Assembly (NCBI GenBank): GCA_002479245.1
Contig: DLMG01000196.1
Coordinates: 6,303 to 18,991 of the forward strand
Reading direction: 5' to 3'
Source: Verrucomicrobia subdivision 3 bacterium UBA7542
Lineage (GTDB): Bacteria > Verrucomicrobiota > Verrucomicrobiia > Limisphaerales > UBA11358
DNA length: 12,689 nt
Shown here: one piece after another, positions 33-12,485 of the stretch
Position numbering within the stretch: position 1 is the first letter of the stretch
Layout of the letters: each line of letters opens with the position of its first letter
Translations under genes and position numbers: made by a program
The notes under the pieces: generated by a model
The model's input: only the letters and a program-made list of their open reading frames with translations
Told to the model about the DNA's origin: nothing
Database searches by the model: none

Positions 33-446
33 TTATTTCTGGTTGGCCGCCTCGGTGGCAAGATCCACCTTGGGAATATTCGCCTGCTGGCAGACATCCA
101 GCACGGCGCGGATCTGTTTATACTTGGTCTGGCTGTCGCCGCGCACGATGATGTTCAAGTCTGGATCGTCCATGCGCAGAGCAATCAGGGTTTGCAACAT
201 CTCGATCGCGGCCGTTTGCTTCTTGTTCAGATAAATGATCCCATCGGCCTGTACCGTAATATAATTGGCCTTGCGCGGCGGGTCCTTCAGACGCTTCGCC
301 GCCGTGGGCAGCTTCAAATCCAGGTCATTCACCGGCGGAATGGTGGTGATGATGAAGATGACCAGCAGCACGAACGCCAGGTCCAGCAGCGGAGTGATGT
401 TCAACTCCGTCAGTGAATGATGTGCCGTTTTTGAACACTTTTTCAT
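33..446 (-). CDS. exbD: ExbD/TolR-family proton-channel subunit
   Basis: This 137-residue inner-membrane protein is the ExbD/TolR partner of the ExbB proton channel, which turns proton-motive force into work on the outer membrane. It has a short cytoplasmic N-terminus, one membrane helix at about residues 18-38, and a periplasmic domain at about 45-137, the usual ExbD plan and length. The motif NITPLLDLAFVLLVIF matches the ExbD signature, and Asp22 sits where the proton-carrying Asp of the family lies. Its ATG overlaps the TGA of exbB (ATGA, 443-446), so translation is probably coupled. Another frame opens 3 nt after its stop. TolR is the alternative name, but no tolA, tolB or pal is visible, so ExbD is preferred. 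Confidence 0.93.
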   Translation of the reverse strand: MKKCSKTAHHSLTELNITPLLDLAFVLLVIFIITTIPPVNDLDLKLPTAAKRLKDPPRKANYITVQADGIIYLNKKQTAAIEMLQTLIALRMDDPDLNIIVRGDSQTKYKQIRAVLDVCQQANIPKVDLATEAANQK

Positions 447-1324
447 CGTTCAACCAGCGTGGGGGGTTCCTCGCTCTTCAGCGCGCCGACGATCCGGTCG
501 GCCAGCACTTCGTTGGCGTTACGGATTTCCTCGGCCAACGGGCGATGATCCACATAGACGTGCTCAATCTGGTTGGCGTAACGGCTGGCGAATCCGTCGA
601 GTTCCTGCGTGATGGCACGGATGGTGGTGACCATGAAGTTGTAGGCAAACATCGCCGGAATGGCCACGAGCAAACCTGTAACCGTGGCCACCAATGCCGC
701 CGCCACACCGGGCGCCATGGCCGTCAGGGTGGCCGCCCGGCTTTCGGCAATGCCCGCGAAGGTGGACATGACGCCCCAAACCGTGCCCAACAACCCGATG
801 AACGGCCCGCCGGCCACCGCCGTGGACAATACAATCATCCCCTTCTCCAATGCCATCGCCTCTCCACCGGAGGCCTCCTCCAGGATTACTTTCACCGCCT
901 CAAACGAGGCGATGCTGACCTTGGTCTCGGCGGACCGGGCAAGGTAATCGGTGTTGGTGTGTTCCCCGCCGTTTGGGGGAATGAACTTGGCGATGGCTTG
1001 TACCTGCACCGGGTTGTTTTTCAATTGATACGCCAGTTCGTCCGCGCCACGGATGTAAAGCTGGTAGGCGGGCGCGCCGTCGAATTCCTCGCCCTTGCGC
1101 TGGATATCCAGCGGGTCGCGCGTGGAGTTATAGGCGGCAAAGAATTTCTTGGTCGCCTTCCGCGCAATCATCAACTGGCGGAACTTGGTGATGATGATGG
1201 TCCAACTGAACAGCGACAGAACCAGCAGGGCGAGGACGGTGATCTTGCCTTCGGTGGTGGCATTCTGGATGGCATACACCGCCGCGTTGGCGGCGAACAT
1301 TGGATGGATAAACATGGGGGTCAT
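443..1324 (-). CDS. exbB: ExbB/TolQ/MotA-family proton-channel protein
   Basis: This 293-residue protein is the ExbB/TolQ channel subunit. It has three hydrophobic segments, at about residues 27-47, 165-190 and 205-228, with a large cytoplasmic region between the first and second, as in the family. The block GLLGTVWGVMSTFAGI (177-192), followed by APGVAAALVATVTGLLVAIP (204-223), is the diagnostic ExbB core; Thr181 and Thr216 correspond to the conserved channel-lining threonines. The ATG overlaps the TGA of the tpsA gene (ATGA, 1321-1324). No strong ribosome site is visible, which fits coupling to tpsA translation; an ATG three codons later is an alternative start. The odd point is the partner: ExbB genes usually sit with TonB-dependent receptors, not inside a two-partner-secretion operon. 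Confidence 0.95.
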   Translation of the reverse strand: MTPMFIHPMFAANAAVYAIQNATTEGKITVLALLVLSLFSWTIIITKFRQLMIARKATKKFFAAYNSTRDPLDIQRKGEEFDGAPAYQLYIRGADELAYQLKNNPVQVQAIAKFIPPNGGEHTNTDYLARSAETKVSIASFEAVKVILEEASGGEAMALEKGMIVLSTAVAGGPFIGLLGTVWGVMSTFAGIAESRAATLTAMAPGVAAALVATVTGLLVAIPAMFAYNFMVTTIRAITQELDGFASRYANQIEHVYVDHRPLAEEIRNANEVLADRIVGALKSEEPPTLVER

Positions 1325-4300
1325 AAATGGTTACTTGAGGTTTGGTTTTGGGATAAATGTTTCGGTGGCAACAAAACGGTCACGCGGCCGGCCTTCTGCA
1401 CTGTGGCCACTGCCTTGCCTTTTTTCTTCACGTCGTCATCGGTGGCAGTCGTGTCGTCATTTTTGGCGGGACTGGCGGAATTTTCACTGGCCATTCCCTG
1501 GCTGGCTGCATCCGCAGCCGTGCCTGCAGCCAAACTATTCTGGCCGCCGTTGACCTGGTCGTTTGAAAACAACGAAGCGTCACTCGTGTCGCCGGTGGCG
1601 TCAACGCCTTGGAGACCAATAATTTTGCTATCCCCAAGACTGGGCGCGGTGACATCGGCTTTGCCGCCCGCCACGAGATCGACATTGACTGTGTGATCGG
1701 CGGTTACATTTGAATCGCCTTGGCTAAAAATGGTTCCCGTGATGTTACCGGAAGCATCCATGGTTACCGTGCCGGCACCCAACACTCCCGATCCGGTGGC
1801 GGTTATATCCTGATTGTCGTATGTTTTCACTAGTGTACCTTCAGCCAGATTGAGGGCTGTAATGGGATTGCCGAAACCATCCGATGGTTGCAATTCATAA
1901 CCCGCAAAAACATCCACCACACTATTTTCAGGATTGCCATTGAGAGTCTGCTGCAAGTCCAGAGCGGCCTTCATGTTGCCGGTAAGCGCCAGATCAAACA
2001 TATTTGCCAGAGATTTATTGTTAAGCGGCAAACTAAAAAGAGTGGTCGAGTCGGGAAGTGGAGGCCCGTTCAAGAGCAGTTGCAGGATGCCACCTGCCGC
2101 GGCGTTGACCGAGCCTTTGGGAGCTTCAACCAGAATATTACCAGGCTGGGTGTACGAGACATCCATGATCCCGCTGCCCGGAATGGTTGATGACTCCGCA
2201 GTAACCGACTGGTCGGGATTAACCAGATAAGAACTGACACTCACAAACCCGGAACCGCCACTTCCCGCATTGATATTGCCATTCATGGACACCACGGTTA
2301 CGGAACCGCCGGGTGTCGTGGAACTGTCGTCCGGGCGTGTGTCATAGACTCCAATCCGGGAACCATTGACATTGATGTCCCCGTTGGCGTAAACAAAGAC
2401 ATTGCCCAAGTCCGTCGAATAAATGCCGCGAGCAGAAGCGGTATTGACGGAAAAATCCGCCGAGCCGGCATTGATATCTCCACCGGCGTTTATGGTGATA
2501 TTGCCGCCCTGCAAAGAGGCGATGGAACTGGAATACATGTCCAAATCTCCGACGAGATCGCCGGCAGTTTCTCCCTCGGAGTGGTTCCCGGTGGTGGTGA
2601 TGGTGATATCAGCCCCATGATCGAACACGCCTCCGTTGCCAAACAAACTGGCGAGTGGATAATTGCCGCGAACCGTGTAAAGCCCCACGCCCTCCGATTG
2701 AATCCCGGCGGTGGTTCCCAGGTCTATGGTCCGGGCCGTAATGTTGAATTGTCCACCGCCGCCAATGGTGTAACCGTAAGTGCCGTCAGGAGGCCCCGAA
2801 CCGGCAGGAAGCCCGCTATACGCGTTCTCTGCGTTATATTGAGCCAGCAGTGCTTGCGCGGTTGCGGAGGTCAGGACAGAAGCAGTAGTCGTTATTGGAT
2901 TACCATTGCTGTCGAATTGGGGAACGCCATTTTGGTAAACTTGGACCGTCAAATTTTGCAGCAGATTCAGAATACTGGCAATACTCACCCCGGAGATGTT
3001 CTGATAGGTCAGGACCCCGGTATTGGGATTATAATACAAACTCGTGGTCAGTGTGGCTGCCGAAATGGAAGTGCTGCCAATTGCGTTGTTCACTGCCTCT
3101 GAAAGATAAGCCATGTCCGGGGCTTGCACGCCCGTCTGAGTCAAATCAAGGGTAACGGTGGTGAAAGCGCCCCGGTTAATGATGTCGCCGCCCACTGTCA
3201 AGCTGCCATCCGTGGCCGAATTCAAAATACTGCTATCCTCCATGTTTTTCTCGGCGGTCAGACCGACATTGATGCTGGTTACGTCGTTGGCGGACAAGTT
3301 CATGCCTTGAAACCGGCAGTTGTACATGTTGCCAACCACATTGATTTGCGCCGCCTCGGGAGCGTCCAGAAACACCAAACTCATATCCCCCGAGATGTTC
3401 AGGACGATGGGGGTCGAAGCGTCCAGGTGGACCGGCGAGGCGGCATGATCGTTTACGCCAAAATTACCACTCGCTGTGTATTGACTAAGACCGCTGTCCG
3501 AGACGATTAGATTAAAAATTTGGGGGATTCCGCCAGAAGACGCCAGGTCGCCGACGAGCGAACCGCCGTCCGTGGTGTTGATGGTGAGGCTTCCCTGCGG
3601 TGAAGGGAATAAAATCAACTGATTAAATGGGGCGGTGCTGCCGCCCACCAATTCCACGCCACCAGCCCCCGCAGTGATATTCAAGATGGATGGATAAATG
3701 AATGGCACCTGAATGCCAGAAGGCCATGGCAGCACCGAGGGAGATGCCCCCAACTGCACCAGGTTTCCCGCGTTCAAATCAACATAGTCGCCAGGCGCGT
3801 AATTAAAATAGTGGTCGTAGGAGCGTCCGCCATTGATGTCAAAGTCACCATTGGGATTGCGGACCTCCTGGAGGTAGATGTTCTGCGCCGCATCCACCGT
3901 CCAGCCACCGCTGATCAGATTCAACGCCAGTTCATTGTCCGCCGTCCCGGCGCTGCCCGTGGAACTCGAATCCAAAACATAACTTTTACCATCCGTGACG
4001 GGGTTGCCATTGGCGTCTACAGGAATGCCGTTGACCATTTTCACCCCGGCGTAGATGGCACCCGTGCCATTGGCTACGAGATAATTGCCGGTCACATTGC
4101 CGCCCGCCACGATGGTCACATTCCCGGGTTGGGGGCCATAAGCACCGGAACCCGCCGTGACGTAATCAGCATTGTTGGGTGACTCCAGATTGCCGTCGTA
4201 ATAATAACCACCATTGCCGGGCAAGACACTGGTCACATTACCGCCCGCGATGAGTGTCACATTACCGCCCGCTTCGGTGCTGATGCCTCCCAAACCGTCA

Positions 4301-6219
4301 CTCAAATTATAAGCCGCGCTGAGGGTGTTCACACTGCCGATGCTGAAATAATAACCTTGCGCGTCGGATCCAGTGTCAATGTTACCCGCCAAAGCATGGG
4401 CGCTGATGCTGCCACCCCCCGTCGTGATCACGTACCCGGAACCGACCAGAATGTTCTGGCCAGCCGTCAGATTGATGTCGCCCGCCGCCGCTTGTATTGA
4501 ACCGCCAACGCCATCACCATCCAAACCGCCATTCAGGTAAATATTACCGACACCAAATTGAACCGTGTTGTTGGCATAATTATATCCGGCATCCAGCGTC
4601 ACCAACCCATTGTTTCCAACGGTGATTTGTGAGCCGTCTCCAAATTGAATGTCGCCGCCCGCCTGCCATGTGATGTTGCCGGCACTGGAGTTTATGGCGC
4701 CGGAACCAATTTGAATGCCATTGCCAGCCATCAGGTTGACCGAACCGGAAGCGGTTTGAATTGATCCGCTTCCAGCCTGACCATTGCCGCCGTTCAGATA
4801 AATATTGCCGGTGCCGGTCTGAATCGTACCGGTGTTGAAATTGTTCACACCGGCCATGAGTGTCACCGACCAATTGTTCGCGTCAGAGATTGAAGCCCCA
4901 TCTCCAAAAATGATGTTGCGTCCGGCCTCAAGCGTCAGTTGGCCGCTGGTCACACCACCGAAGTTCGCGCCAATGGTTCCGCTAAGGTCCCACGACGTGC
5001 CGCTGGAGAGCGTGATGTCATACATGGCCTGAAGAATGATCTGGGAAACTGCAAGATTGGCGAACGCACTGTTCACATTCAAATCCAGCGTGCTGCTGGA
5101 ATTGTTCCCGGCCAATACCGTGCCACTGCCGGCACTGCCGGAGCCGGACGTGTCCAAAATGATGTAACCCGGATCCAGCAACAATTTCCCTGCCGTCCAA
5201 CTCGCCTGCGCCCGAGCGTCAATGCTGGAGTTCAACGAGATGACGTTGGGTGCGCTGATTTCGACGTTGCCGCCGTTGCCGCCCTGTGAACCGCCGGTCA
5301 CGGAAATCTGGCTGCCGACGTTGTCGCTGAAAGTGTTGCCGGACTTGAGCGTCACATTGCCTCCAGCGCTCCCGCCCGCCGAGTCATCGCCGTTGGCACT
5401 GATTTGGGAATTGGCGCCGAGGTTTAATTGGTCGGAAGCGACAAGTTCGATGGTGCCGTTGACATCCTTCACCGAGTTGGCCTGGATAAAACCGTCTTGG
5501 TTTACCACCTTGGCATTCATGGCAATCGTGCCCCCATCAGCGACGAGCCGGCCTTCGTTGTCCACTGAACCGCTGGGCAGCGTGACCGCCATGCTCATGC
5601 CGCGGCCATCGGGACGATCGCTCAAGAGCACGGTCTGTCCCGCTGCAAGGCCGATGGTACCGCCGGGTGCCGTGATACTGCCGTGGTTTTCAATCTGGTT
5701 GGCGATCAAAAATGCCGAACCGCCCTGGCCGACGTTGATTTGACCGTAGTTGACGATGCTAGCGAGCGGGGGCGGGCCGTTGAACTCCCAACCGGCACCG
5801 GAATTTTGCGGGGGGATGTAATTCGCGGTGGAGACGACCAGCCCGGCGGCACTCACAAACGAGTTCGGGCCGAAATAAAAACCGGAGGAATTGAGCAGCA
5901 CCACGATGCCGTTGGCCTGGAGACTACCGTAAATCTGCGACGGATTCGCGTTGTTGATCTGGTTCCACACGATTGAGGTAGTGGAAGGTTCCTGAAAAAT
6001 TGTGGTCTCGCCAGCGGCAATGTTGAAACTCTGCCAATTGAGGACGGTGTTCTGCGAAGTCGTGGTGATGGTGAGTTGTGAACCGCTGCTGGTGGCGGTG
6101 GCGGAACCGCCGTGTACGGTCATGCTCGTTGGATTGGCCATTGCGCTCCCGGCCATATCGAGCATTAAAACCGCGGCAACCAACCGGCGGAACATGGGGT
6201 GGCGATACAGTGTGCGCAT
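1321..6219 (-). CDS. Two-partner secretion exoprotein TpsA (filamentous haemagglutinin family)
   Basis: This 1632-residue protein is a secreted TpsA, expected to leave through the TpsB encoded just upstream and to fold as a long right-handed beta-helix at the surface. A Sec signal peptide (residues 1-28) has an Arg-rich start, hydrophobic core and SAMA cleavage site. Residues 30-200 form the TPS (haemagglutination-activity) domain with NWQSFNIAAGETTIF (61-75) and NPSQIYGSL (92-100). The usual NPNGI-like motif is NSSGF (110-114). The rest is Gly/Asn/Ser/Thr-rich with many GGxITxxAGG-type turns and an internal duplication at 438-506 and 526-594. The tail has an Asp-rich patch, then a KKKGK patch (1598-1602) and GRVTVLLPP. 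The frame is open back to 6438, inside the upstream gene; I chose 6219 because AGGA lies 5 nt before it and a signal peptide follows at once. ATG at 6294, which would add 25 residues, is the alternative. The ligand or adhesion target is unknown. Confidence 0.93.
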   Translation of the reverse strand: MRTLYRHPMFRRLVAAVLMLDMAGSAMANPTSMTVHGGSATATSSGSQLTITTTSQNTVLNWQSFNIAAGETTIFQEPSTTSIVWNQINNANPSQIYGSLQANGIVVLLNSSGFYFGPNSFVSAAGLVVSTANYIPPQNSGAGWEFNGPPPLASIVNYGQINVGQGGSAFLIANQIENHGSITAPGGTIGLAAGQTVLLSDRPDGRGMSMAVTLPSGSVDNEGRLVADGGTIAMNAKVVNQDGFIQANSVKDVNGTIELVASDQLNLGANSQISANGDDSAGGSAGGNVTLKSGNTFSDNVGSQISVTGGSQGGNGGNVEISAPNVISLNSSIDARAQASWTAGKLLLDPGYIILDTSGSGSAGSGTVLAGNNSSSTLDLNVNSAFANLAVSQIILQAMYDITLSSGTSWDLSGTIGANFGGVTSGQLTLEAGRNIIFGDGASISDANNWSVTLMAGVNNFNTGTIQTGTGNIYLNGGNGQAGSGSIQTASGSVNLMAGNGIQIGSGAINSSAGNITWQAGGDIQFGDGSQITVGNNGLVTLDAGYNYANNTVQFGVGNIYLNGGLDGDGVGGSIQAAAGDINLTAGQNILVGSGYVITTGGGSISAHALAGNIDTGSDAQGYYFSIGSVNTLSAAYNLSDGLGGISTEAGGNVTLIAGGNVTSVLPGNGGYYYDGNLESPNNADYVTAGSGAYGPQPGNVTIVAGGNVTGNYLVANGTGAIYAGVKMVNGIPVDANGNPVTDGKSYVLDSSSTGSAGTADNELALNLISGGWTVDAAQNIYLQEVRNPNGDFDINGGRSYDHYFNYAPGDYVDLNAGNLVQLGASPSVLPWPSGIQVPFIYPSILNITAGAGGVELVGGSTAPFNQLILFPSPQGSLTINTTDGGSLVGDLASSGGIPQIFNLIVSDSGLSQYTASGNFGVNDHAASPVHLDASTPIVLNISGDMSLVFLDAPEAAQINVVGNMYNCRFQGMNLSANDVTSINVGLTAEKNMEDSSILNSATDGSLTVGGDIINRGAFTTVTLDLTQTGVQAPDMAYLSEAVNNAIGSTSISAATLTTSLYYNPNTGVLTYQNISGVSIASILNLLQNLTVQVYQNGVPQFDSNGNPITTTASVLTSATAQALLAQYNAENAYSGLPAGSGPPDGTYGYTIGGGGQFNITARTIDLGTTAGIQSEGVGLYTVRGNYPLASLFGNGGVFDHGADITITTTGNHSEGETAGDLVGDLDMYSSSIASLQGGNITINAGGDINAGSADFSVNTASARGIYSTDLGNVFVYANGDINVNGSRIGVYDTRPDDSSTTPGGSVTVVSMNGNINAGSGGSGFVSVSSYLVNPDQSVTAESSTIPGSGIMDVSYTQPGNILVEAPKGSVNAAAGGILQLLLNGPPLPDSTTLFSLPLNNKSLANMFDLALTGNMKAALDLQQTLNGNPENSVVDVFAGYELQPSDGFGNPITALNLAEGTLVKTYDNQDITATGSGVLGAGTVTMDASGNITGTIFSQGDSNVTADHTVNVDLVAGGKADVTAPSLGDSKIIGLQGVDATGDTSDASLFSNDQVNGGQNSLAAGTAADAASQGMASENSASPAKNDDTTATDDDVKKKGKAVATVQKAGRVTVLLPPKHLSQNQTSSNHL
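4438..4908 (-). repeat. Protein-level tandem duplication inside tpsA
   Basis: TpsA residues 438-506 and 526-594 repeat with an 88-residue period. Shared landmarks in order are FGDG, the identical GNIYLNGG, GSIQ followed by Ala-Ser/Ala-Ala, NL-AG and a closing GSG. The copies are well diverged at DNA level, so this is an old duplication, typical of growth of a beta-helix by repeat units. Confidence 0.7.
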
Positions 6220-6224
6220 AACAA

Positions 6225-6228
6225 TCCT
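6225..6228 (-). promoter_or_regulatory. Ribosome binding site deciding the tpsA start
   Basis: AGGA on the minus strand with a 5-nt spacer (TTGTT) to the ATG at 6219. It supports the start directly before the signal peptide over the in-frame ATG at 6294 and the open frame further upstream, which lack a comparable site. The 80-nt gap after the upstream stop codon (6220-6299) contains no other feature I can support. Confidence 0.6.
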
Positions 6229-6299
6229 AGTTTTTAAGTTTAGGGCAATCGCGTGCGACCGTACGTTACAAATAGGTGACATGTTGTTGGTCATGGTGT

Positions 6300-9200
6300 T
6301 TAGAATTGGGCACCAATGCCGAAATAGACGTGAACGCCGTCGGATTCCCCGGCGTGACTGATTAAGGGCCAGGCGACCGTCAATCGCCCGTCCATGTGAC
6401 TGCCGATATTGGCGGTCACAGCCCAACCCGCACCGCAAAATGATTCGTGGCTGTCACTGCCGGGCGATGGTTGGGCAAGCAAATAAATCCTGCCGTAATC
6501 CAGAAACACCGAGGCACGAACCCAGCATGGTTCGAGGTGTCCCTCGTTGCCGACCATGCCGATTTTCATGAGGGGCGTTTGTGGTTCAATGGAGAAACGC
6601 CAACCGGTGTCGCCATAGGCCTGGCCATCCTGATAGCCACGAACGCCCGCCGTACCTCCCATGGCATATTGTTCGTTGCTGATTAACGGACCATCGGCCC
6701 ACTGACCGTCGGCATGAAGTTTCACCGACCAGTCTTTGTAAATCGTCTGAATGCGGTTGGCTCCGAGTTGCAGCGTAACATAATGAGGGCGGGCATTTGT
6801 CGTATAAGCAACGCTGGAAAAGGAGTGGTCATGAATCGTCTTTGTGGTTGTAACTACATTCGTTTCAGTCGTTGTTATATTCGTTGTGGTTACTTGGGTG
6901 TTTTCCTCTGAAAAAACCGGGAGAAAATTGAAATTGGCTTGGGCGTTGAAAAAGGTCGTCCCCAAGGTATCGGGCATAGAGCCGTTCCAGCCAACATTCA
7001 GAGGGAAATATTCCACCGCCGTCGGCCGAACCGACTGAAGTGTGTAAAGGACATCGCCAAATTTATATGCCGAACCATTGTTGGTCGTGCTGGTCAACGC
7101 ATAAAAAATGTTAGCGTTTATGCTGTTGGCCTGATACTTTTTGTAATCTGCACCAAAAGAGAATGTGGAGGCCAGCTTGTCCAGGGCCGGCAAGGGCAGG
7201 GAGAATTTGAAACCCAGTCCCTCATTCAGAGTTACATTCTCACCGGCTGTCTGAGACCCGATGGCTTCCAGATTTGTCGAATTCCCGCTAGGAGTAGCGC
7301 CTATAATTACATTGGGTGACCCCATTTGAACGCCCGTGTCCGAGGTCGAACGACTGGCGTAGAGTGTCAGTTCCGGCCGCCCGGTTGGTGGGGGCACTTG
7401 GAACTGGTGGGTGATTTCGTTGTAACCGAAGCTGCCGGGGTTGGCGTCCACCTGTTGCTCCACCGAATTGTAACCGCCGAGCGGCAGGCGATAATATGCA
7501 CTGTAATTGGCAATCAACGGATTATCGAAGGGGGTGGCATAATACGGATCGCTGTTTTTAAGCTGCTCGGGCGTGAAGTTGTATTGGATGCCGACTTGAT
7601 GTTCGAGATCCCAAAGGTTGTCGTATTGGACGTTCAAATTCGCGCGCAAGTCGGGCGTGCCGGGCGTGCCCTGGTTGTTGAGTTCCAGCCGTGCGTGCAG
7701 GGGAAACTCGTCCTTGACCTTGAGCGTGAGTTCGCTGGTGTCCGGCTCCGGCCCGGGGCCGATGACGGGATAAATCTGACGGTCACGGCTGGCGTTGGCG
7801 TTGTCCAGTTCGCGCTGCAGGACTTGCGAATTGAGCAGTATATTCGTTTGCAAACTCGGCAGGGAGCGCATCACATTGTTGGAACTGTAGTAGCGGTTGC
7901 CGGTGACGTTGATGGCAGCAAGCCGGCCTTCAGTGACCTTCACTTTCACTGTGGCGTTGGTAAGTTTCTGCTGGGGCAGGCCGACGGACACGGCGACATA
8001 GCCGCGTTCGCGATACGCCTTCTGCAGTTCAACCATCGCCGCGCGGATCCCTTCAAAGCTGGTGTTGGTGCCGAAGGCGCCGTCCACGTTGGTGATGACC
8101 CGGGCCATGGCCTCCGGCGGCAGAACGGTATTGCCCGTGACCAGATATTTCTCCACGTCAAACCTCGGCCCGGCGTTCGTTGAAACCACGTGAACCCGGG
8201 TGTCGTTATCTTGGGCTTTCAACTCGGCCAGCTTCTGGAGCAGGACGGCGCGCGCCTGAGCCATCGCTTCAGGACCGGCGGGTGTCTTCGAACAGCTGAT
8301 AGCTGGAGCAACGGCATTGGTGGTGGCGGTCGTGGCCAGGGCCGATTGCGGCAACGCCGGTTCCGCCGCCGGCAAGCTTGAGCCAGCTTGTGCAGGTTGT
8401 GCATGGCTGCCGGAACTGACGTAATGTTTGCCAGACAACCAAATCTGGGGAGACGCCATCGGAAAAACGTTCATCGTAACCGTGCCGTTGGTGATTTGCT
8501 GCTGCGCGATTGTGATGCTCATCGTTGGATAGCCCTGTTTCCGATATTCCAATTGCAGGTCTGAGGCCGCTTTCACTATCTCGTCCAAACTGACGTTTGT
8601 GCCGGTGTATTTGGAAAAGATGTCCGCCAGAATGTTCGTGGAAAGCGATGTGTTGCTTTTGACTGCATAAGCCTGGACGTTAAAGCGAGGATCCGCGTTG
8701 CTCTCAGCCGTGGCTGTGGCATTGATGGTTGGAAGATTAGTCTGTGCCTGCACAGGTGAAATAAAGTTCAGGGCGAACAGGACGAACAAAACCGCGGCGC
8801 GAGTAGCGGATTTCGCGAGGCCGTTCCGGGGTGCCGACGGGCAATTTTTGCGCTGGTTCTGCTGGCGCCATTCGCTGGGAGTCACGCCGAAACGCTTTTT
8901 GAACATGACATTGAACAGGCCGAGATGCCGGTAACCGCTGTCATACGCGACGCTGATGATTTTGTCGTCTGAGTTGGTAAGCAACTGCCGCGCGTGCAGC
9001 AGCCGCAATTCAATCTGCCGCGCGCGGAACGGCACACCGAACTCCTCGCGGAACAGGCGGCTGAAATGCCGTTCGCTGCAATTGAGCTGCCCGGCCAGGT
9101 CGCGCAACGAGCATTGGGACAGTTCAGCCTCCGGCATCTGGCCGACCAGTTGCCGGAAACGCTCATGCAGCCGGCCGCCCTCGGCGGATTCCATCGCCGG

Positions 9201-9665
9201 TGCCGGCAGCAGACCGGTGATGGCGTTCGCCCAAAGTTGCAGCAGCCCGCAACGCATGGGCAGCCCCTCCCGCTGTGTTTGCTCCGTCAGCCGCGTGAAC
9301 CGTTGCCCCAGCGGCTCGCCGGCGGTGAAGATGGAAACCTGCGACGTCAGGTTGTTGGGAGTCACTTCGAGTTGATGCCATTCCGCGACCGTGAGCAGGC
9401 CGTTGAGGTACTGCGGCTGGACGCTGAAAAACTGCAATTTGAGCGGACCGAGCTGGCTGGCTCGCAACACCCCGTTGCTGCTGTTGCTCGTCAACAAGCC
9501 GTCCCCCACGGAAAGCTGGCGGGCAGCGGCACTCGGTTGCAGCCAGTAACCGACGCCCTCGGCTACCCGCACCATGAACCATTCATGATGGCGGGGAGTC
9601 CATTCGCCCGAAGGGCGCAAGGTCAGTTCCTGCAGCAGGAGATGTCGCTCAATGGTCACCGGCAC
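6300..9665 (-). CDS. AraC-type regulator fused to TpsB/FhaC-type outer-membrane transporter
   Basis: One 1121-codon frame holds two proteins that normally are separate. Residues 1-170 look like an AraC-type sensor domain. Residues 185-268 are a complete AraC double helix-turn-helix (RHFSRLFREEFG; YRHLGLFNVMFKKRFGVTP). A basic linker and a Sec-signal-like segment follow (288-307, VLFVLFALNFISPVQA before Gln308). Then come POTRA-like domains at about 327-403, 501-580 and 582-653, and a barrel at about 655-1121 with GGTAGVRGY (1003-1011, the loop-6 VRGY tip), VFLDYG (1053-1058) and a C-terminal Phe. FhaC relatives are about 550-600 residues with two POTRA domains; this part has an extra POTRA-like unit, a 97-residue Ala/Pro-rich linker and an enlarged barrel. 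The start is GTG; an in-frame TAG at 9687-9689 limits extension, and no clear ribosome site is seen. A separate tpsB could start at ATG 8906 (Met254), but without a good ribosome site. It is the partner of the downstream tpsA. Confidence 0.85.
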   Translation of the reverse strand: MPVTIERHLLLQELTLRPSGEWTPRHHEWFMVRVAEGVGYWLQPSAAARQLSVGDGLLTSNSSNGVLRASQLGPLKLQFFSVQPQYLNGLLTVAEWHQLEVTPNNLTSQVSIFTAGEPLGQRFTRLTEQTQREGLPMRCGLLQLWANAITGLLPAPAMESAEGGRLHERFRQLVGQMPEAELSQCSLRDLAGQLNCSERHFSRLFREEFGVPFRARQIELRLLHARQLLTNSDDKIISVAYDSGYRHLGLFNVMFKKRFGVTPSEWRQQNQRKNCPSAPRNGLAKSATRAAVLFVLFALNFISPVQAQTNLPTINATATAESNADPRFNVQAYAVKSNTSLSTNILADIFSKYTGTNVSLDEIVKAASDLQLEYRKQGYPTMSITIAQQQITNGTVTMNVFPMASPQIWLSGKHYVSSGSHAQPAQAGSSLPAAEPALPQSALATTATTNAVAPAISCSKTPAGPEAMAQARAVLLQKLAELKAQDNDTRVHVVSTNAGPRFDVEKYLVTGNTVLPPEAMARVITNVDGAFGTNTSFEGIRAAMVELQKAYRERGYVAVSVGLPQQKLTNATVKVKVTEGRLAAINVTGNRYYSSNNVMRSLPSLQTNILLNSQVLQRELDNANASRDRQIYPVIGPGPEPDTSELTLKVKDEFPLHARLELNNQGTPGTPDLRANLNVQYDNLWDLEHQVGIQYNFTPEQLKNSDPYYATPFDNPLIANYSAYYRLPLGGYNSVEQQVDANPGSFGYNEITHQFQVPPPTGRPELTLYASRSTSDTGVQMGSPNVIIGATPSGNSTNLEAIGSQTAGENVTLNEGLGFKFSLPLPALDKLASTFSFGADYKKYQANSINANIFYALTSTTNNGSAYKFGDVLYTLQSVRPTAVEYFPLNVGWNGSMPDTLGTTFFNAQANFNFLPVFSEENTQVTTTNITTTETNVVTTTKTIHDHSFSSVAYTTNARPHYVTLQLGANRIQTIYKDWSVKLHADGQWADGPLISNEQYAMGGTAGVRGYQDGQAYGDTGWRFSIEPQTPLMKIGMVGNEGHLEPCWVRASVFLDYGRIYLLAQPSPGSDSHESFCGAGWAVTANIGSHMDGRLTVAWPLISHAGESDGVHVYFGIGAQF
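7926..8687 (-). repeat. Duplicated POTRA-like module in the transporter, with linker
   Basis: Residues 327-403 (8687-8457) and 501-580 (8165-7926) of the fusion protein line up: DPRFNVQAY with GPRFDVEKY, SNTSL with GNTVL, a TNxSxxxI(V/R)xA segment, LQLEYRKQGYPTMSITIAQQ with LQKAYRERGYVAVSVGLPQQ, and (I/L)TNGTVTMNV with LTNATVKVKV. The copies are separated by about 97 residues rich in Ala, Pro, Ser and Thr (8456-8166). The second copy has the fuller POTRA_2 signature (GNTVLP, VTEG). Confidence 0.75.
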
Positions 9666-9693
9666 AAGACTGAAGACGACTCGTGACTATTGC

Positions 9694-9711
9694 GTGTCAA
9701 CCTTGCGACAA
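9694..9711 (-). promoter_or_regulatory. Direct repeat with 11-bp period upstream of the AraC-TpsB gene
   Basis: Read on the minus strand the site is TTGTCGC, four bases, TTGACAC: two related heptamers one helical turn apart, ending 28 bases before the GTG start. The layout resembles a Pho box and also the site 12190-12207 before the CHAD gene. It could equally be an operator for the gene's own AraC domain, or chance. Confidence 0.25.
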
Positions 9712-9736
9712 TTTTGAAACAATACATTTCATTTAT

Positions 9737-9833: not shown

Positions 9834-10328
9834 ATGGGGAAAACAATTGTAATTCTGTGTCTTTCCTTGTTTGCTGCCGGTTGCGCATCCAACCAGACAA
9901 CATCTGCCAAAGTATCTTCCAGCAACGTATTTTTTCTGGCCACGCCACCCCCGGATGGCACGCGTGTCGGATGGACTTCATTTAACGATCACCTGACCCG
10001 GCATTACGCTGACGATGCCATGGTGCATATGAGACAGGATGCGGCCGGAAGAGGCGCAAACGTGGTGGTCTTGCTGGGAGTTGATCCGCCCAACCCCACA
10101 GGCCGTTTCGGACAATTCGAAGTTTACGGTTATCTTGCCACGGTTTATGTCTGGGCAGACTTGTATTATTGCCCGGGTTTGACCAACTCTCCGGCCATGG
10201 AAATGCCGGATGATAAAACCCCGCTGGTCCAACTCGTCTCCGCCCGCTCCGCTCCATTATTCTCCACGTTGTTAACCACCACTGGCACCCGGGAGCAATT
10301 CGTCTCAACCGCCGAACAGTTGAAATAG
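9834..10328 (+). CDS. Small putative lipoprotein of unknown function
   Basis: This 164-residue protein has a lipoprotein-type signal: a short N-terminus with one Lys, a hydrophobic stretch (IVILCLSLFAA) and Cys17 in FAAGC. The -3 residue is Ala rather than the preferred Leu, so the lipobox is slightly atypical. No Asp follows the Cys, so outer-membrane sorting is possible. The mature part has no domain I can name; a helix-like segment ending in GRGANVVVLLG (about 61-71) resembles loosely the region in small RcsF/DUF4156-like lipoproteins, but this is only an impression. The gene stands alone on the plus strand, divergent from the TPS operon and convergent with sixA. The ribosome site is weak (TTGGA). 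It ends just before a strong hairpin, which supports a real transcript end. Confidence 0.75.
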   Translation: MGKTIVILCLSLFAAGCASNQTTSAKVSSSNVFFLATPPPDGTRVGWTSFNDHLTRHYADDAMVHMRQDAAGRGANVVVLLGVDPPNPTGRFGQFEVYGYLATVYVWADLYYCPGLTNSPAMEMPDDKTPLVQLVSARSAPLFSTLLTTTGTREQFVSTAEQLK

Positions 10329-10671: not shown

Positions 10672-11175
10672 TCACGTCATCAATTCCATTTGCCGCGGCG
10701 TGAGCAGCCACACCAGTTTCGCACAACGGCCATACAACAGGAATTCCGCCTCCAATTTGCACAAACCGCCTTTTTTGAAATCAATTTCCAGGCTGGTATT
10801 GCCGGCAGCCAGCAGTGCAATCAGTTTGCCCAGGTACGGCTCGTGGCCGACCAGCAGGACGTTCTCCGGTTCGGGACGAAACTGGTTCAATTGTTGAATC
10901 AGCAACCGGGGATTGCCGCCGGGAGTCAAATCTTCGGAGAAGACCAGTTTTTTCCGCAATTTGAAGTTCTTGGCGATGATTTAAGCGGTCTGTTTTGTCC
11001 GCAGGAACGGGCTGGAGAGAATCAGGTCAAAAGAGAGATCCAATTCAGCCATCGCTTTGGCGGTGGTGCGCAGGCGGTTTTTCCCTTTGGCGGTGAGGGG
11101 CCGCTCGGAATCCGGTTCGAAACCGGCCACTCCCGGTTCAGCGGCGATGCCGTGGCGAAGCAGGTAGAGATTCAT
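10672..11175 (-). pseudogene. sixA: sixA-type phosphohistidine phosphatase interrupted by an in-frame stop
   Basis: SixA proteins are small histidine-phosphatase-superfamily enzymes that remove phosphate from phosphohistidine, for example on HPt domains. The N-terminal part begins MNLYLLRHGIAAEPG with the RHG motif (His8 expected to be phosphorylated) and runs to SSPFLRTKQTA. There a TAA (10981-10983) stops the frame. In the same frame the protein continues IIAKNFKLRKKL, LTPGGNP, VLLVGHEPYL (second catalytic His about residue 111) and KKGGLCKLE to LTPRQMELMT. The full length, 167 codons counting the TAA, fits the family. Relatives normally have Glu after QTA, so GAA to TAA, one base, explains the break. 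Neither half alone holds a full active site. The start overlaps the CHAD gene by 38 nt; AAAGG lies just before the ATG. A sequencing error or readthrough remains possible. Confidence 0.85.
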
Positions 11176-12103
11176 GAGCCTTTATTTTTCGCTTTTGGGT
11201 TGGTTGCCTGAGTCCGGATGGTGGCCAGAAACGCCGTAACCTGCCGGCCGCGTTTACATAGATTTGGATCAACATCTGGCGCCAGCGCACCAACTCTTTT
11301 TCCAACCGGCGGGCCGACGCGGCGTTGACTTCTTTCTTTTGCACGAATTTGTCCAACGCCGCCAGCAATACTTCCATGTCCTGGATGTCACCCATCATGC
11401 ACTGGTAAGCGCGCATGGCGCGGCGATGGTCCTCCGTGACGGCGGGCAGCAGGGGCGCCAGCGCCCCGACCATGTAACGGAAGTGTTTGAACGCAATCCG
11501 CGTGCGGTGGATGGACTTGGTGTCGTCGGCCCGCACGTGCCGGCAAAGTTGCGCGACCCGGGCAAACGCCTGGTTTATGGCGCGCTGGACAATCGCGAAA
11601 GCCCGTTCGCGGGGGATCCGTTTGTGCTGGAGCCGGATTTCCTTTTCAAATGCCGCCAGACACCGGCCCAGACGCTTCGTCTTGATATGTTTGACGGCTT
11701 TGCGTGTGGTCCGGGTGAAACGGGTCTTGCGGTCCCGCAGCCAGTCGTAAAACGCATGCGCGTCCGGAAAGGTGGCCGCCATCCGCCCCACGTAACCCAG
11801 TTGGACTTGCGTGTCGCGGAGCTGGTCGAAGGTGTCCAGGTGCCGCTTGAGTGCGCGGCGGACTTTCTTGATGTCACGTTCAGGGATGAACGCGCCGAGC
11901 AGTGCGATGGTTGAGAGGAGACGGCGGGTTTCCACCCGCACGTCATGCACCGCGTCTTCGGAGAACCGTTCCTGGCAGCGCTTCAGCCGTTTGCGATAAC
12001 GCAGCCACTGCGTGTGCAATGAATCGCCAAGATGTCTCAGCACATCGGCGGTTTGGACAGGTGCAATGTCTAACTGGCTTTGTCGGTGCATAACGTGATT
12101 CAT
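11138..12103 (-). CDS. CHAD domain protein
   Basis: CHAD (conserved histidine alpha-helical domain) proteins are helical and rich in conserved His, Arg and Lys; family members bind inorganic polyphosphate. This 321-residue cytoplasmic protein is strongly basic and shows the hallmarks: VHDVRVETRRL (52-62), LRDTQVQLG (95-103), IHRTRIAFKHFRYMVG (198-213) and MMGDIQDMEVL (236-246). These represent the two halves of the domain, so it is complete. No triphosphate-tunnel (CYTH) domain is fused. I chose ATG 12103; the codon before it is TTG and another ATG lies four codons on. No clear ribosome site is seen. The last dozen codons overlap the sixA start, so both genes are probably co-transcribed. A Pho-box-like repeat upstream would fit a role in phosphate storage, but that is inference. 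Confidence 0.9.
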   Translation of the reverse strand: MNHVMHRQSQLDIAPVQTADVLRHLGDSLHTQWLRYRKRLKRCQERFSEDAVHDVRVETRRLLSTIALLGAFIPERDIKKVRRALKRHLDTFDQLRDTQVQLGYVGRMAATFPDAHAFYDWLRDRKTRFTRTTRKAVKHIKTKRLGRCLAAFEKEIRLQHKRIPRERAFAIVQRAINQAFARVAQLCRHVRADDTKSIHRTRIAFKHFRYMVGALAPLLPAVTEDHRRAMRAYQCMMGDIQDMEVLLAALDKFVQKKEVNAASARRLEKELVRWRQMLIQIYVNAAGRLRRFWPPSGLRQPTQKRKIKAHESLPASPRHRR

Positions 12104-12485
12104 CAAATGCTTTGACTTGGAATGACTCCTCTCGTCGCTTTCAAAGAATCAAACCGCCCGCAGGGTAGGTTCACCTTTGCCGACGGAAAGTTACAATCAG
12201 GTGACAAATCTTGCCAGCGCGCAAATTCATGGCTTTTGGCCTTCGGCCCGCTTGATTCCAAATGGCCGCCACGTCTTTTTCGCTTGAGTATCCAGAGTGC
12301 TCCACGGCACGTCACCTGCTAACCACGATCTTGAGTCAACGTATCGCCAAACCCCTCGTCCAGCTCCCAGCCCCGGTAATTTTTATTCTGAGTCAATACG
12401 ACGTGGCGGTTGTCGGGATGCAATCATCAATTGCCTTGTCAAAATGAAATGATTTTTTCAAGATGCGCAGGAAGAAGAAAATATC
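12104..12485. other. Intergenic region between divergent genes
   Basis: About 380 bases with no gene I can support. It contains the repeat at 12190-12207, a small GGCC-TTC-GGCC hairpin near 12237-12248, two copies of TGAGTCAA about 57 bases apart (near 12332 and 12389), and TTGTCA at 12436-12441, which could be a plus-strand -35 but lacks a good -10. An eight-codon frame (MRRKKKIS, 12463-12489) near the right end overlaps the next candidate ORF by ATGA. Confidence 0.5.
12190..12207 (-). promoter_or_regulatory. Pho-box-like direct repeat upstream of the CHAD-sixA genes
   Basis: On the minus strand the site reads TTGTCAC-CTGA-TTGTAAC: two heptamers spaced by four bases, the layout of PhoB boxes (CTGTCAT repeats with an 11-bp period). 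It lies 87-104 bases before the CHAD start. A CHAD gene is a sensible PhoB target because polyphosphate stores phosphate. No clear -10 follows at the expected distance, so this is a candidate only. Confidence 0.35.

Follow-up and report, generated by a model that had tools for sequence, protein, structure and literature searches.

Fusion of an AraC-family regulator and a TpsB transporter in a single reading frame

A 12,689-nucleotide stretch of the genome of Verrucomicrobia subdivision 3 bacterium UBA7542 (contig DLMG01000196.1, positions 6,303 to 18,991; hereafter the window) raises the question of how an AraC-family transcription regulator and a TpsB transporter of a two-partner secretion (TPS) system, which belong in different cellular compartments, can be encoded in one reading frame, araC::tpsB. 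We tentatively favour, at somewhat less than an even chance, the reading that its product is the precursor polyprotein of a phosphate-starvation TPS/TonB operon, which is split by signal peptidase and leaves the AraC half with a membrane anchor. This is based on the recurrence of the fusion, the cleavage motif and charge bias at its junction and the absence of a common internal start, as well as on selection acting on both halves, a clade of anchored AraC relatives without a TpsB passenger, the AraC fold, the operon and its promoter element.

The fusion open reading frame (ORF; 6300..9665, minus strand, as are all features of the fusion) is open from end to end and encodes 1121 amino acids with no internal stops, confirming the single uninterrupted frame reported in the first-pass annotation. 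The second GTG codon (9659), which yields a 1119 amino acid product, is the likelier start than that at 9665, since many relatives start at this codon. The regulator, consisting of a sensor and a double helix-turn-helix (HTH), occupies 8856..9659, as supported by Pfam, an AlphaFold2 model and PDB matches, and includes an HTH_18 domain (8859-9098, residues 190-269; Bitscore: 83.7; cut-off: 33.6). An internal signal-like or transmembrane segment follows at 8745..8804 (residues 288-307), recognized from the sequence, the junction statistics and a predicted helix, with a predicted cut at VQA/QT between residues 307 and 308 (codon ending at 8745 and codon starting at 8744, respectively); both lie where they had previously been placed. 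The TpsB half has an extra N-terminal POTRA domain (8460..8687, bounds approximate), delimited from two POTRA_2 stretches, the secondary structure of the full-length model and the query coverage of relatives, and missing from shorter (about 950 amino acid) relatives with a query coverage of about 60%. The better of two Pfam POTRA_2 stretches is located at 7926..8162 (residues 502-580), while the barrel part (6303..7652, start approximate) was identified from a ShlB match in two stretches, the best at residues 956-1062, and from a VRG motif which is invariant across the alignment. Both POTRA_2 and ShlB score above their Pfam cut-offs.

The fusion product thus belongs to both the AraC and TpsB families, save for the position of the signal. 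A C-terminal double-HTH DNA-binding domain typical of AraC/XylS proteins is supported by the HTH_18 score and PDB matches, and the N-terminal cupin-like sensor by model matches to the AraC, BgaR and ToxT sensor structures. POTRA domains followed by a ShlB/Omp85 barrel, as in type Vb (TpsB) transporters, are evident from Pfam and a CdiB match, and a cognate gene for a TPS-domain exoprotein lies next to the fusion in the window and in 37/39 fused loci with enough sequence. The N-terminal Sec signal peptide of such transporters is absent, and as the signal-like segment is internal, behind 287 residues, this is an atypical TpsB. The parts, as judged from their sequences, are of known kinds, but no description of their joining was found in the titles and abstract starts returned by searches of open-licence literature, outside which most subscription journals fall; the first-pass annotation had likewise known of none.

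Recurrence and taxonomic spread of the fusion

A search with the whole protein returned 472 matches, and among the 120 listed, 117 carry HTH_18 and POTRA_2 in the same protein, while the remaining three (P0059, P0063 and P0088) start inside the HTH or TpsB and appear incomplete. Residues 1-300 alone gave 430 matches, and all 120 of those listed bear both domains, with no other passenger on the AraC part among them. The first-pass annotation had proposed looking for such recurrence, and the fusion is indeed found again, in ten family groups. It had also named a sequencing error near 8740-8910 as a possible cause; an assembly or sequencing error was rejected, as the frame is continuous in many independent assemblies, including an uninterrupted fusion (P0132) on a contig of 4,639,047 bases.

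Thirty-five loci were retrieved in a scan of named genomes, of which 33 are titled Verrucomicrobiota (Verrucomicrobia, Limisphaerales or Pedosphaera) and two only "bacterium". The fusion is present in 21 of these, among them one (L014) with a frame break in AraC and two (L009 and L027) that end at a contig edge. Across the phylum, a one-frame AraC and TpsB was found among the listed matches, from which weak ones are dropped, in only two of 387 genomes, both in the genus group of the window. From 293 scanned genomes of the order, 60 stretches were taken for their strong matches, and since this choice is non-random no fusion rate can be obtained from them. Intact one-frame fusions occur in ten family groups (f1, f86, f90, f91, f96, f106, f114, f117, f121 and f136) of a single order, Limisphaerales, placed within Verrucomicrobiia in the NCBI taxonomy, and in an eleventh (f135) the locus carries a frame break. 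In many families of this order, a transcription factor and an outer-membrane transporter have been kept in a single frame. The frame break in the AraC part of L014 (the same locus as L112) and the split TpsB gene of L150 may be real or assembly errors.

The junction: cleavage motif, membrane segment and internal starts

The junction was compared in 167 distinct fused sequences, which are related and therefore not independent counts, against 1,670 control windows. Directly behind the hydrophobic core, [AVSTGIL]xA is found in 164/167 junctions (55.6% of control windows), AxA in 95 (19.4%) and xAQ in 128 (4.0%), while the net charge is greater on the N side of the core in 165/167, an N-inside bias. 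Motif and charge bias fit cleavage by signal peptidase I with the AraC half in the cytoplasm, and the earlier suggestion that the internal segment is usable with the N-terminus inside and a cut near VQA-Q is supported by the conservation of both among fused junctions.

It is highly improbable that the product remains an uncut single polypeptide that reaches from AraC in the cytoplasm, across inner membrane and periplasm, to the barrel in the outer membrane and passes signals directly over the envelope. Such a reach is conceivable because long linkers flank the segment in the full-length AlphaFold2 model, but a cleavage motif so far above the control level is hard to explain without cutting. 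The model itself (mean predicted local distance difference test, pLDDT: 57.9) is too weak for a fold search and was used for the order of segments only; it contains a low-confidence helix at 282-300 (1119 amino acid numbering), strands and helices at 325-400 with block pLDDT values of 62-84, corresponding to the extra POTRA region, and low-confidence linkers at 269-281, 301-323 and 415-466.

A second alternative is that TpsB is mainly produced from its own internal start, at the HTH end or in the linker, yielding two proteins from one frame. An in-frame ATG, GTG or TTG does occur between the HTH and the core in 31 of 40 distinct fused DNA loci, but the positions differ between loci, and in the other nine there is none (for three of these, counting began only where the HTH match ends). 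A Met codon within the HTH is found in 25/40 fused loci, yet is as common in unfused AraC (20/29 loci and 82/103 proteins) and so is no sign of an internal start. No Shine-Dalgarno-like word precedes this codon in any of the 25 loci, a test that is uninformative as such a word is found at only 3/37 gene starts. With no start common to the 40 loci, an internal start as a general rule finds no support, and we consider it quite unlikely to be the main source of TpsB.

An independent start near 8906, which had been named as a challenge to the split precursor, is not common to the loci, although a related pattern is found in some fused proteins. A second signal-like hydrophobic segment past the first AQT site was observed in seven listed fused proteins (P0015, P0019, P0036, P0038, P0041, P0047 and P0052), and in six of these a Met lies just ahead of it; P0049 looks alike by eye. 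This could possibly represent a separate TpsB start or the relic of an older tpsB start. Close relatives with a stop codon at the junction, likewise anticipated, are absent among the listed fusions, but unfused relatives do exist.

Selection and structure of the two halves

Between the window and the L007 locus, the ratio of non-synonymous to synonymous substitution rates (dN/dS) is 0.125 in the sensor, 0.023 in the HTH, 0.36 in the signal, 0.48 in the mature linker and extra POTRA and 0.22 in the remaining TpsB, with the 19-codon linker being saturated. The five other pairs compared range from 0.08 to 0.16 in AraC, from 0.25 to 0.67 at the junction and from 0.04 to 0.22 in TpsB. As the ratio is below one for both halves in all six pairs, both appear to be under purifying selection and look retained as working proteins, and the HTH value is consistent with DNA binding and transcription control by the AraC half.

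Modelled alone, the AraC part has a mean pLDDT of 84.2. Over the whole length, the closest PDB entries are ToxT, Rns and CsvR, with overall TM-scores as low as 0.35-0.41; lone AraC-type sensor or DNA-binding domains come next, with a higher target TM-score. In the model, the AraC fold is complete. The family profile matches CdiB and the POTRA of TpsB4.

AraC relatives without a passenger and evolution of the fusion

Short relatives of the AraC part number 533, of which 120 were listed. A hydrophobic segment follows the HTH in 53 of the latter, some being truncated fusions, while 67 lack a membrane segment. A quick tree was built from 136 AraC domains (69 from fusions and, among the unfused, 20 with and 47 without a hydrophobic tail; representatives at 82% identity), with 11 ambiguous rows dropped, a midpoint root, SH-aLRT support only and several long branches. 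Fused rows occur in deep groups and all over the tree with unfused rows scattered among them, and the fused label changes 18 times, against a mean of 45.9 when shuffled. This tree is most simply explained by an old fusion from which TpsB was repeatedly lost, though this is not a proof.

The same relatives bear on whether the anchor has a function. The precursor may be cut as proposed, while the anchor plays no regulatory role and the fusion simply ensures co-production, with the AraC half becoming soluble after proteolytic release or the remnant being degraded. As the passenger-less relatives often lack the segment, the regulator does not in general need one, which speaks for this alternative. 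In one clade of seven passenger-less rows, however, the segment is retained in all seven; this clade is nested in one of 22 rows, 14 with and eight without the segment. Furthermore, in 13 passenger-less proteins picked for having the segment, it still starts 14-23 residues past the HTH match, with positive charge ahead of it, despite a mean identity of 28% in the tails compared to 74% in the AraC parts. This retention favours the use of a membrane location in that passenger-less group, and an anchor with no regulatory role is, in our estimation, somewhat unlikely.

L139 and L134 have separate AraC and TpsB genes on the same strand, and in L150 the gene is split. In L136, L148, L149, L151, L153, L154 and L156, members of a more distant AraC group are divergent from unfused tpsB-tpsA pairs, while no AraC match was found in the retrieved stretch of other operons (L122, L123, L124, L128, L129, L135, L141, L143 and L146). 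In L024, L025, L030, L032, L033, L034 and L041, an unfused AraC gene stands directly ahead of exbB on the same strand, without intervening tpsB-tpsA, and its nearest partner is the TonB-type genes rather than TpsB.

A repeated promoter element ahead of the fusion

Four direct repeats at 11-bp spacing (9682..9723, minus strand) are located 22 nt ahead of the GTG at 9659. Motif searches of 28 araC upstream regions identified this element as a motif of 38 columns and 29.9 bits, made up of four half-sites at this spacing (six runs: 19.4-29.9; controls: 11.2-12.5). When left out in turn, 26/28 sites score at least 19.7, the exceptions being L027 (1.6) and L022 (9.2). The matrix, trained on araC promoters alone, was scanned over 1.48 Mb of partly overlapping loci, and at a score of at least 14 it detected 16 additional araC sites, one pstS site, eight sites of unfused tpsB and others elsewhere; none was obtained after base shuffling of the first 60 loci. 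Twenty of the other or further sites were inspected, and are located ahead of porin-type genes (nine; four Porin_5 by Pfam and five by likeness), pstS, tpsB, araC and exbB (one each), the rest being ahead of unrelated ORFs or of no evident ORF. The element also precedes porin-type genes located beside TPS or AraC-exbB loci (L030, L033, L034, L131, L041 and others).

A Pho box, as published (PMC4971064), spans 22 bp and consists of two direct repeats of 7 bp, each accompanied by 4 A/T-rich bp, giving the same 11-bp period as the four half-sites here. Because of this period, and because the araC-trained matrix also picks pstS, porin and tpsB promoters, the element is probably a tandem Pho box. 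The box is shared with the pstS gene of the same genome, where the site scores 27.1 bits, and the four-repeat array is also found ahead of pstS in L163. Eleven of 15 pstS upstream regions of the genus exceed the 95% level of the controls, although only three (27.1, 31.1 and 18.8) lie clearly above the 99% level (7.5).

A pure AraC operator was the initial reading of the element, and was set back once the matrix matched pstS and porin promoters. We regard an AraC operator, in place of or besides the Pho box, as unlikely, in view of the same four-repeat array ahead of pstS, both here and in L163, and ahead of porin-type genes. The third base of half-site 1 is nevertheless T in 38/52 AraC-linked sites and in 0/12 pst or porin sites (Fisher: 2.9e-6), a comparison in which the sites are related, all 64 were picked by the araC-trained matrix and 12 of the 15 pstS regions are left out for their low scores. 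GTTxC is thus preferred in AraC-linked promoters and GTCAC or GTAAC in pst and porin promoters, leaving room for AraC binding at the element too. Judging from these motifs, control by a PhoB-type phosphate response is better supported, and AraC may provide a second input.

The operon and its neighbouring genes

The operon has the order araC::tpsB-tpsA-exbB-exbD-tonB-exbD and is convergent to pst genes. In the window, all on the minus strand, tpsA (1321..6438) encodes a TPS-domain exoprotein in a 1705 amino acid ORF, the start of which is probably further in, at about 6219, and is followed by exbB (443..1324) and exbD (33..446), both identified by Pfam. The TonB_2 protein (5604-6230) and the second exbD (5188-5607) lie beyond the window in the same genome (L160, minus strand). 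Among the genes that the operon faces there, pstS, pstC and pstB pass the NCBIfam cut-offs, and candidate pstA and phoU genes were named from reading and position. Among fused loci with enough sequence, exbB and exbD are present in 24/26 and two exbD genes in 22/26. The TpsA of the window and of six relatives shows TPS-type domains only, apart from a DUF3739 match in one relative that scores below the cut-off.

A 164 amino acid ORF with a lipoprotein-like start (9834-10328, plus strand) is divergent from the fusion and shares its promoter region; it has no family match in Pfam or NCBIfam. Near the locus, a weak SixA-like fragment (below cut-off) and a CHAD-domain protein are encoded at 10672-12106 on the minus strand. 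CHAD domains bind polyphosphate.

A proposed split precursor with a tethered regulator

The sequence of events in the reading that we favour would be as follows. The first part of the chain would fold in the cytoplasm into an AraC-family regulator, residues 288-307 would then enter the Sec machinery with the N-terminus inside, and signal peptidase I would cut behind VQA. The TpsB half would then reach the outer membrane and export TpsA, while the AraC half would remain fixed to the inner membrane by the spent signal segment at its C-terminus, with later trimming of this anchor by an intramembrane protease being possible. The AraC half would act on transcription of its own operon, in addition to PhoB-type control through the tandem Pho box. 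We infer the processing, the membrane location, target and signal of the AraC half, and the induction by phosphate starvation alike.

Several observations weigh against this proposal. Besides the relatedness of the junctions, the second hydrophobic segment in seven fused proteins and the few pstS regions clearly above the controls, the Pho-box reading rests on motif sharing, and the best PhoB match in the same genome scores 219.5 against a family cut-off of 296.2 bits, which only two of 14 control genomes reach. No target site of the AraC half was identified. The membrane segment has, moreover, been lost repeatedly in passenger-less AraC proteins, with 14 label changes on the tree in addition to the 67 listed relatives that lack it; that it is so often missing elsewhere argues against its being generally needed.

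We further consider, as a rather doubtful extension, that the anchor is the spent signal peptide of a co-made transporter, such that one tethered AraC would arise per exported TpsB and the cell could count or sense export, or gauge the TonB system's state; intramembrane cleavage might serve as the switch for release. If the signal remnant does tether the regulator, a single cut would link export and transcription in a very simple form of envelope signalling, and a tethered AraC as a one-to-one by-product would be a new coupling of outer-membrane export to transcription.

Comparison with known systems

Splitting of a bacterial precursor at an internal signal is known from the FbcH cytochrome b/c1 precursor of Bradyrhizobium, which yields two respiratory subunits and no regulator. 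Classical TpsB proteins (FhaC, ShlB and CdiB) share the POTRA domains and Omp85-type barrel with the fusion, but not the AraC part and internal signal ahead of them, nor the extra POTRA of the long form. The core-E1 junction of hepatitis C virus (HCV) is similar in that the end of a cytoplasmic protein is formed by the signal peptide of the protein that follows; after cleavage by signal peptidase, this signal serves as an anchor until released by signal-peptide peptidase (PMC5402940). As HCV is a eukaryotic virus and no transcription factor is involved, this analogy is one of topology only.

The setting of the operon resembles the sigma-VreI (PUMA3) regulon of P. aeruginosa, which includes pdtA and phdA-pdtB-exbB2-exbD2-tonB4-PA0696 (PMC4971064, PMC7035377, PMC5422565). 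As described in the available portions of these papers, both combine TpsA/TpsB with ExbB, ExbD and TonB genes, a putative porin, Pho boxes and phosphate starvation, and PA0696, the putative porin, is comparable to the porin-type genes beside the TPS or AraC-exbB loci; this likeness is one of gene content and setting. The PUMA3 regulators are, in contrast, a sigma factor, an anti-sigma factor and PhoB as separate proteins, with no AraC or fusion mentioned in those portions. A verrucomicrobial two-partner/TonB system is thereby put in a probable phosphate-starvation response, beside the TonB genes of the pdt locus in P. aeruginosa, which still await characterization. For cell-surface signalling of the FecIRA/IutY type, no ECF sigma factor or FecR-like anti-sigma factor is found among the Pfam matches of the scanned window proteins. 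IutY of P. putida is a single chain in which one membrane segment separates a transcription protein in the cytoplasm from a periplasmic part, and it is cut stepwise by Prc and RseP (PMC9249621). It differs from the fusion in being a sigma/anti-sigma protein, its far end is no outer-membrane transporter and its cuts are triggered by a signal. The araC::tpsB fusion may work most like IutY in its layout, while it resembles the pdt/PUMA3 system (PMC7035377) in its setting.

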